From the NCBI GenBank assembly GCA_030041535.1, contig JASHNR010000008.1:1-32103 (forward strand): a stretch of DNA of 32,103 bases. Direction: 5' to 3'. This document shows, in pieces, positions 23,376 through 25,338 of this stretch. The notes beneath the pieces were generated by a model. The model made no database searches and was not told where the DNA came from. It was given only the letters and a program-made list of their open reading frames with translations. This DNA comes from Nitrosopumilaceae archaeon. GTDB lineage: Archaea; Thermoproteota; Nitrososphaeria; Nitrososphaerales; Nitrosopumilaceae. A program made the translations under genes and the position numbers. Position 1 is the first letter of the stretch. Each line of letters starts with the position of its first letter.

Positions 23376-23534
23376 ATGCCAAGAAAAGAATACAAAACAA
23401 TTACCGTGAAAAACGAGTCCTACGAGCAGTTTAAAAGGGCCGTCAGGGATGCAAAGAAAAAAGACAGGTCTCTTGACAACAGCACGTTTCTAAGTTCTCT
23501 CATAAGCCAGCACCAAAGATCTAGAAAGCCATGA
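23376..23534 (+). CDS. Small ribbon-helix-helix-like DNA-binding protein
   Basis: A basic protein of 52 aa. YKTITVKNESYEQFKRAVRD then KKKDRSLDNSTFLSSLISQH reads as strand, helix, turn, helix, the ribbon-helix-helix layout of antitoxins and small regulators. I start at ATG 23376 instead of the upstream ATG (23328) because a TATA-like box lies about 26 nt before it, and the upstream residues would run through the dyad. Its stop overlaps the start of the next gene (ATGA, 23531-23534). The pair has the size and arrangement of a toxin-antitoxin or regulator-partner module, but the second protein resembles no toxin I know. Confidence 0.6.
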   Translation: MPRKEYKTITVKNESYEQFKRAVRDAKKKDRSLDNSTFLSSLISQHQRSRKP

Positions 23535-23752
23535 CAGAAAAACAAAGAAAACCAACACTTGAAGAGATGTGGAAACATATTGGCAGAATCCTCATTCCAA
23601 TGGGCCAGATGCCAGACAAGGCAAGCATGGATGACAAGCAGGTACAGGAGCTTTATTCCGGTCTAATTGCAGCAGACAGGACATTCAAAGATCTTGTACA
23701 GATTGCAATTTTTAAAAAAGAGATCACCGAGATAGAAAACGAGAGTAAGTAA
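23531..23752 (+). CDS. Small helical protein coupled to the RHH-like gene
   Basis: A 73-aa, mostly helical, charged protein (LEEMWKHIGRILIPM, then DDKQVQELYSGLIAADRTFK and IFKKEITEIENES) without membrane segment or catalytic motif. Translation is coupled to the preceding gene by a 4-nt overlap. It could be the partner protein of the DNA-binding-like product. No homology assigned. Confidence 0.6.
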   Translation: MTEKQRKPTLEEMWKHIGRILIPMGQMPDKASMDDKQVQELYSGLIAADRTFKDLVQIAIFKKEITEIENESK

Positions 23753-24099
23753 ATGTAGCTTTTACGCTCTAAATTTTCTCAATACGTGACAAATTTAACA
23801 CATGATTATGAAACGTAGGTTGTCGGTAGGAAATGACATATCCTATGGAATAAAATAAAATAATTGTCTAACAAAGTTAGTGAACCGTGTTCATGAACAA
23901 GGTATCACAAATGTATTATCCAATTTTGTGATCATATATGTAATGGAAACTGTGGGAGCCAGTCACTTTGAACTAACAGTACCTTGTCTAGATTTCAATC
24001 CTACAGTTTCCATACATCATGTTGGATCTCAGATCGAATTGTGTTAAAGGTTTCCTAGTTTTGAAAAAAGAATAGTCTTTGTTAAAATATAGAACTGAT
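23753..24099. other. Structured intergenic region with several inverted repeats
   Basis: This gap of about 350 nt lies between converging genes and has no credible ORF. It holds the perfect palindrome TGTTCATGAACA (23888-23899), then ATCACAAA/TTTGTGAT (23904-23911 with 23925-23932), then a 15-bp inverted repeat (23943-23957 with 23999-24013, one G-U in RNA) around a 41-nt loop. ACAAGGTA (23897-23904) can alternatively pair with TACCTTGT (23980-23987). It could be a structured RNA, a terminator zone or the remnant of a small mobile element. Confidence 0.5.
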
Positions 24100-25338
24100 T
24101 TAATCTCTTCTGAGTGCCACCATTGGAGATAATCTTGATGCTTTCCAAGCAGGGTAGATTCCTGCCATGATACTAAGAGTCAATGATAGCATCCAAACCT
24201 TGATCAGGTCCTCTGGTAAAAATATTGGCGGTATATGTGTAGGATCTCCCCCGGTAGGAGATGGAACAGTCATGATCGTGCTAAGAAGATATCCCGCACC
24301 CATTCCTATTGTTATACCAATGCTTGCACCTATTATCCCAATCAAAGCTGCTTCAACCAAGAACAGGGAAAGAATTGTTGTGTTTTGCGCGCCTATTGCT
24401 TTCATTGTTCCAATCTCTTTTATCCTTTCATTTACAGAATTGTACAATGTGGTGACAATCCCAACAGCTCCGACCACTAGTGCAATTATGCCAACCATTA
24501 GGATAAACGCATTATTTCCACTGGCTGCCTGTTCCCGTATTGCCATCACAGCTTTTGGAGTATTGAGTCCAATAGTGGAACCATATTGATTGGTTATCTC
24601 TTGTTGTACCGTATCAACATAATCAGGTGAGTCTGCCATTATATACAATGTATCATACTTGTTTGATTTTTGTAGTAGTTGATTTGCCGCATCAGGGTTT
24701 ATGAAAATCGAAGTGTCAGTTATTGTGTCTCCTGTAGGCTTGACAATTGCTCTAACAATGAAATTCTTTACGTTGCTCTCCTGCTGTCCTGCAGAATTTG
24801 CATATGTATATGTCAGCTTTACTGTTTGTCCCAGAGTCACAAAAGGTAGAGTATCGCCTGGAGGATTTGCTACAGTGTCTCCAACAATTACTGCTGCACG
24901 ATCAGCAGGATTTACAGCAGAACCGTCAACATACTGCAAGTTTGGCACCTTAACCTGTAGTTTTGTGAGATCCATGCCAACAACTGTTACATGTTGTGTG
25001 TTTCCCTCGGTATCCATCTCTACAGTGCCCTGATATTTTGGTATGACATCTTCTACGAATGGAAGTGACTTGATTCTGTTTACTATAACATCATTTATGA
25101 TAAGTGATGCAGAGGAACTGCTTGAATGATACGAGTGCTGGCCTGAGCTGGCAAAGATAAGATTTGCTGCAAGCGTGTTGAATTGTTGTTCTAGAAATTC
25201 TGCCTGTCCTGCGCTGAGTCCATTTAATACAACTACCAGACTGCTTCCAAGAACTACCATCATTACAGTTAGAAGTGTCCTGACTTTTCTGTCAATTAGC
25301 GCATCAAAAGATAAAGAAAAGATATCGTGTATTTGCAT
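24100..25338 (-). CDS. FtsX/MacB-type ABC permease, orphan
   Basis: A 412-aa ABC permease of the MacB/LolE/FtsX class: one N-terminal helix (about 22-42), a large extracytoplasmic domain of about 230 residues, then three helices near 278-300, 325-355 and 375-397. MacB-type signature phrases are visible (NSVNERIKEIGTMKAIGAQN in the loop after helix 2, and a late WKASRLSPMVALRRD). Such proteins transmit force from an ATPase to the outside and export lipoproteins, peptides or drugs. No ATPase gene is present in the window. An AAGGAG lies 8 nt before the ATG. A possible gene remnant lies just upstream. Confidence 0.88.
   Translation of the reverse strand: MQIHDIFSLSFDALIDRKVRTLLTVMMVVLGSSLVVVLNGLSAGQAEFLEQQFNTLAANLIFASSGQHSYHSSSSSASLIINDVIVNRIKSLPFVEDVIPKYQGTVEMDTEGNTQHVTVVGMDLTKLQVKVPNLQYVDGSAVNPADRAAVIVGDTVANPPGDTLPFVTLGQTVKLTYTYANSAGQQESNVKNFIVRAIVKPTGDTITDTSIFINPDAANQLLQKSNKYDTLYIMADSPDYVDTVQQEITNQYGSTIGLNTPKAVMAIREQAASGNNAFILMVGIIALVVGAVGIVTTLYNSVNERIKEIGTMKAIGAQNTTILSLFLVEAALIGIIGASIGITIGMGAGYLLSTIMTVPSPTGGDPTHIPPIFLPEDLIKVWMLSLTLSIMAGIYPAWKASRLSPMVALRRD

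Follow-up and report, generated by a model that had tools for sequence, protein, structure and literature searches.

Sequence comparisons reported here point to a small RNA gene lying between two convergent genes in the genome of a nitrifying archaeon that we take to belong to the genus Nitrosotalea. The window, by which we mean the whole stretch of DNA analysed, is the entire contig C2 (32,103 bp) of a 1.83-Mb, 66-contig genome. That the locus is an RNA gene is very probable. We further consider it likely that its product is a small non-coding RNA, one of four such RNAs in this genome, from an undescribed multi-copy family of sibling regulators acting in trans.

Organization of the locus

The element sits, as originally predicted, between convergent genes: a gene for a 73-aa protein of unassigned family on its left (positions 23531-23752, + strand) and a MacB/FtsX-like permease gene on its right (24100-25338, - strand). 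At this locus the best-matching named relatives belong to the Thaumarchaeota, among them Candidatus Nitrosotalea sp. TS, which matches at 93% across part of a neighbouring gene. We place the corrected extent of the element at approximately 23888-24015, comprising a putative operator, a predicted promoter and the RNA. The putative operator is an exact, unstranded 12-bp palindrome, TGTTCATGAACA (23888-23899), which starts 56 nt upstream of the stem. It is followed by a candidate promoter (23904-23921, +) consisting of an upstream box, ATCACAAA, and a TATA-like box, GTATTATCC, recognized by alignment with TACACAAGTATTATTTAAT of the relatives. The predicted small RNA is approximately 75 nt long (about 23942-24015, +), with ends placed from the distance to the TATA-like box and from the stem. 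Its basal stem joins the 5' arm TGGAAACTGTGGG (23944-23956, +) to the 3' arm CCTACAGTTTCCA (24000-24012, +), the latter being near-invariant across the family except for its last two bases. Between the arms, the predicted fold contains an apical hairpin, CUAACA-GUACCU-UGUcUAG (23973-23991, +), whose loop is a putative pairing site and whose position corresponds to that of the GGGAA/UUCCC hairpin of subfamily A.

All of the repeats on which the original prediction was built are present, namely the palindrome, a 15-nt inverted repeat (23943-23957/23999-24013; 14 of 15 positions complementary, with 41 nt between the arms), an 8-bp repeat (23904-23911/23925-23932) and an alternative pairing, ACAAGGTA/TACCTTGT (23897-23904/23980-23987). 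As features of a single sequence these repeats are weak and only mildly unusual. A 15-nt repeat with at most one mismatch and a loop of 20-80 nt occurs once in the window versus 0.23 times per dinucleotide-preserving shuffle (5 of 40 shuffles had at least one), and among 1000 shuffles of the 126-nt segment a 12-bp palindrome arose in 3.6%, a close 8-bp repeat in 6.9% and any 8-bp repeat in 17%. Folding of 23880-24025 gave z-scores of -2.9 (+ strand) and -3.0 (- strand); for the RNA part alone (23935-24018, +) the z-score was -4.7, and none of 200 shuffles folded as well. Compared with its relatives, the 15-bp repeat is the basal stem of the predicted small RNA.

The suggestion that competing pairings mark a switching RNA was not supported by this comparison. 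The predicted transcript includes neither the palindrome nor the 8-bp repeat, both of which are located upstream of the TATA-like box or across it. The alternative pairing is not conserved because the three closest relatives, which keep the palindrome, have GTGCCCTT in the loop in place of the partner GTACCTTG. The palindrome resembles a DNA operator and lies upstream of the TATA-like box, and is therefore probably not part of an RNA switch. The absence of any recognized family, on the other hand, was borne out by the searches: Rfam 15 gave 0 matches by gathering score across the whole window, a best match of 18.2 bits within 23700-24150 at E 10 (all under gathering scores) and 0 matches among the relatives, and tRNA and tmRNA searches returned none above threshold.

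Discovery and distribution of the family

DNA similarity searches with a 341-nt query matched only the window itself among the 37 genomes of the genus group, and those with a 163-nt query against 400 genomes of the order (E 1) returned, besides the window, only a scatter of short matches, none above 40 bits, which we attribute to chance. Phages gave five matches at E 0.3 and plasmids none. It was the near misses at the palindrome in the 163-nt search that pointed to the family. The exact palindrome occurs in 16 of the 37 genus genomes, mostly upstream of genes, and three of these sites are followed by the same kind of stem-loop at the same distance as in the window. A model built from these three stem-loops and the window (R1) matched four further strong members, including a canonical copy in the genome of the window itself (G000:C45), and three weaker ones. 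A two-arm pattern matched 12 of the 37 genus genomes, in several subfamilies, with a reversed-pattern control at 0 in all 37. Across the 400 order genomes the pattern matched 20, and of those outside the genus only the one in G334 appeared genuine on visual inspection; scattered genomes were matched by the reversed control as well.

A second model (R2, 29 members) detected 38 loci in 15 of the 37 Nitrosotalea genomes at E 0.01, a threshold to be read as rough given the 0.2-Mb calibration behind the E-values. The output had 39 rows, one of which is an opposite-strand echo (G012:C11:6097, E 0.001) left out of the locus count; two more genomes were reached at E 0.3-0.4 only, and the search of G002 gave no locus. 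In the order-wide search at E 0.01, R2 matched 17 of 400 genomes, all in two of 66 genera, with six loci in three genomes of the sister genus g25; the family totals 44 loci. Because the order search uses stricter filters, the lack of matches beyond Nitrosotalea and g25 among the 400 genomes at E 0.01 is an absence at that sensitivity. As far as searched, then, the family appears confined to Nitrosotalea and one sister genus. Counts given below for 43 members leave out G005:C74 because it resembles G006:C33.

Stem conservation and probable transcribed strand

The family stem, GAAACUGUAGG/CCUACAGUUUC, is near-constant and 11-13 bp long. In sets whose pattern-found members were chosen for matching, intact arms, the stem pairs in 90.3% of 507 cells across 39 sequences (37-50% with the arms slid) and in 93.1% of 377 cells across 29 sequences (35-50% with the arms slid). 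At the 11 inner pairs, the 39 sequences show 36 one-sided changes that preserve pairing as G.U when read on the + strand and would give A.C on the other; these comprise 28 A-to-G changes in the 5' arm together with 6 A-to-G and 2 C-to-U changes in the 3' arm. The opposite case, a change giving A.C, occurs once (in H2_G334), and the innermost pair includes six cells without pairing. Comparison with relatives thus supports the + strand as the probable transcribed strand, the orientation of near-symmetric members, Z and H above all, having been assigned by visual inspection of the TATA-like box or C-rich loop.

Compensatory changes in the stem, proposed in the original prediction as a check, are present yet modest overall. 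Two-sided changes convert UA to CG in G027 and the terminal UA to CG in G031, another appears as CCGUGGG/CCCACGG in the held-out G007, and the second stem pair is seen as GC, AU and UA. Covariation is limited because the stem hardly varies: shuffles of the 39-sequence set reached the observed pairing in 5 of 500 cases and the observed number of pair types in 83 of 500, and the full set of five shuffling controls (5, 23, 12, 83 and 4 of 500) gives a moderate signal.

The window copy as a family member

A covariance model of 39 members (R3), built without the window and without three other loci, finds the window copy at 23903-24017 on the + strand with 53.2 bits (E 4.9e-7) and gives no second match in the window at E 1 or better; the three other held-out loci score 39.9-41.1 bits. 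Searched at E 0.01 against 41 loci (246 kb), R3 matched only the nine known family loci of that set, of which at least eight are in its training set or overlap it; the row ranked next (E 0.022) comes from the opposite strand at one of the nine. All 13 pairs of the window stem form, 12 as Watson-Crick pairs and one as G.U, and the stem fits GRRACUGURGG/CCUACAGUUUC. These comparisons place the predicted window RNA within the Nitrosotalea constant-stem family and lend support to the earlier view of the locus as one that encodes a structured RNA.

Membership in the family leaves room for the window copy to be a decayed and silent pseudogene, which we judge unlikely though worth serious consideration. 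Its TATA-like box is weak, its loop is divergent, and its score compares with 73-88 bits for subfamily A, whose members are in the training set. Furthermore, G009, the nearest syntenic relative, has the same gene pair approximately 100 bp apart and lacks the RNA. Against such decay stand a stem in which every pair is intact and a palindrome that is exact.

Promoter and upstream palindromes

In 37 of 43 members a TTAWW motif precedes the stem by 20-30 nt, versus a mean of 7.9 and a maximum of 18 over 1000 rounds of shuffling; orientation by the TATA-like box favours this count, and choosing the better of two strands would at most roughly double the shuffled mean, which would still be well under 37. 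The window box, TATTATCC, aligns with the box of its relatives and is weak, being among the six members that miss the strict TTAWW. A distance of 20-30 nt matches the spacing between TATA box and start site in archaea, for a start just before the stem. A TATA-type promoter approximately 25 nt before the stem is thus supported by comparison of the members.

Further upstream, subfamily A carries TTGTTCATGAACAA, or a version altered at its centre, at -54 to -56 in 7 of 7 loci, subfamily C carries TTGCAAnnnnTTGCAA or a close form at -57 to -60 in 7 of 10 members by script (it is visible in C_G000 too), and H carries the palindrome TTGATACAGTGTATCAA at -62, while many other members have no visible upstream palindrome. 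We infer that the upstream palindrome is the binding site of a regulator, and different copies would therefore answer to different signals.

The window palindrome TGTTCATGAACA is also found in several Nitrosotalea genomes just upstream of a TATA-like box and a small gene with a secreted-like protein start (L118, L122, L128, L130 and L116), so that a regulon comprising both RNAs and proteins may share this putative operator. In four other cases, each in a different genome (L120, L121, L125 and L126), about 3.2 kb separates the palindrome from a MacB-like permease gene, the type of gene that neighbours the window RNA.

Loops and possible targets

The loops differ across the family and are often C-rich single strands, with AACCCCAUCC in subfamilies B and C, CACCCUACCC and UACCUACCC in D, and GUGCCC in A; the window loop, GUACCU, is the least C-rich among those compared. 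The genome of the window holds four copies, belonging to A (C45), C (C30) and D (C14) in addition to the window copy, and these are identical at only 24-29 of 46-57 positions in loop alignments. The window copy has its palindrome in common with A and its loop core, CAGUACCU, in common with D of G012.

Comparison of the members supports a stem that ties both ends of the RNA together and a loop region that is variable. We propose that the constant stem either protects the RNA or is held by a shared protein. The loop, often C-rich and held out of the stem, would then pair with target RNAs in trans, although base pairing as the mechanism is put forward only tentatively. The exact 10-mer GGATGGGGTT, complementary to the B/C loop, is present in 29 of the 37 genomes, with a frequency that does not clearly exceed that of the reversed control. 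We examined 56 of its sites, 42 of which came from genomes carrying B or C members; no site among these was conserved at a gene start, and in recurring orthologues the site is inside genes or on the opposite strand.

A doubtful but conceivable alternative is that the partner of the RNA is a protein or the ribosome, with the RNA sequestering the protein or mimicking 5S rRNA. A stem that is near-constant across subfamilies would suit this role, as would the subfamily-B loop CCCCAUCC-GAACUC, which we take to resemble loop C of 5S rRNA (L014, L010, L018, L020 and L006). However, the loops differ by subfamily, and those of A and D lack the 5S-like motif.

Genomic context

Subfamilies A and C each hold a fixed position. 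The A loci have the same neighbours in seven genomes, with a divergent upstream neighbour in five of seven and a convergent downstream gene in six of seven. The C loci share one convergent downstream gene in nine of ten genomes, with the remaining locus at a contig end, and most have an NHL-repeat gene upstream; the RNA starts 69-78 nt after the same-strand upstream gene in seven of the ten genomes and lies 20-101 nt before the end of the convergent gene in nine. The downstream genes of A and C show no relation to each other.

The closeness of the C loci to the ends of both flanking genes, together with the position of the window copy between convergent genes, would be in line with a bidirectional terminator or an mRNA-stability hairpin in the shared 3' region. 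We regard this as improbable: the upstream neighbour of most A loci is divergent, the G.U pattern fits one strand only, TATA-like boxes and palindromes recur at fixed distances, and neither sequence conservation of the stems nor the distinctness of the loops would be required of a plain terminator. Far less probable still is a MITE-like short mobile element with 13-bp terminal inverted repeats. Further copies, which the original prediction took as a sign of mobility, do exist at several per genome, and the window site is empty in G009, but the fixed positions of A and C and the dissimilarity of the copies within the genome of the window argue against a transposon. In addition, a DNA similarity search for near-identical copies in one genome returned only the window itself, conservation extends to the promoter upstream of the repeat, the G.U changes fit a single strand, and of 40 viral-contig matches to the stem pattern R3 recognised none as a member (one at E 0.54, the others no match). 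A cis-acting leader or switch of the downstream gene is similarly remote: a same-strand ORF begins just downstream of the RNA at G027:C21, whereas in the window, in six of seven A loci and in nine C loci the downstream gene is convergent, so that nothing follows for the RNA to control in cis.

The 73-aa protein family occurs in 31 of 61 genomes searched, all of one genus, with up to eight copies per genome, and has no match in Pfam or NCBIfam. A copy of its gene lies upstream of the window RNA and of all five subfamily-B RNAs. These five B loci, first met among loci fetched around homologues of the 73-aa gene, lie at most about 1.2 kb downstream of such a homologue when coordinates are compared by hand, and genome-wide pattern and model searches found no B locus away from these homologues. 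On the other side, the permease gene at the syntenic empty site of G009 (G009:C3:5724-6971; L063) is broken by several stops, and its 3' end is 93% identical, as if partly exchanged.

Proposed function and relation to known RNAs

A bolder reading, and one that we hold to be a long shot, is a modular form of riboregulation specific to these archaea, in which the constant stem would serve as a handle for one dedicated RNA-binding protein while, in each subfamily, the loop sets the choice of target and the palindrome the choice of signal. If true, the genome would hold a set of RNA regulators that are interchangeable and act in the manner of small guide RNAs. For an acid-soil nitrifier, the recognisable promoters, putative operators, stem and loops offer concrete loci to probe.

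The H/ACA and C/D guide RNAs of archaea are likewise small, structured and of similar size. Unlike these, the predicted RNA shows on visual inspection no K-turn, C/D boxes or ACA tail where they would be expected, and it has no Rfam match. The literature searched, including the available portions of PMC4836417 and PMC5867862, with most subscription papers and all preprints outside its scope, contained no description of the family, and we found in it no RNA regulator for Nitrosotalea or other ammonia-oxidising archaea. For N. devanaterra, whose chromosome is 1,805,304 bp, seven small RNA genes are reported, unnamed in the passage available (PMC4836417), and a 2012 review states, in its available part, that sRNAs had not by then been studied in any thaumarchaeon (PMC3432209). 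Methanosarcina sRNA162 and sRNA154 and Haloferax sRNA132 and s479 are archaeal sRNAs too, of which sRNA162 has reported mRNA targets and sRNA132 a putative one; they come from unrelated lineages and, in the excerpts available, are not described as one stem-sharing family.

Among bacteria, the excerpts available describe multicopy sRNAs in the meningococcal sibling sRNAs (PMC5362039), Listeria LhrC1-5 (PMC5880928) and the copies of CsrB, for which differential regulation is described (PMC6262261). The Nitrosotalea family resembles these in having several related small RNAs per genome, and differs in being archaeal, in keeping the stem constant while the loop varies, and in having no Rfam-recognised relation to them. 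The alpha-proteobacterial cuckoo/alpha-r14 sRNAs (NfeR1 and relatives) are, in the portion of the source available, multi-copy hairpins with unpaired anti-Shine-Dalgarno loops for mRNA pairing (PMC7143759); there the stems are hypervariable and the loop motif is constant, an arrangement that the Nitrosotalea family reverses with its constant stem and varying loops. The predicted RNAs would be an archaeal case of sibling sRNAs, one in which loop and promoter vary and the stem stays.
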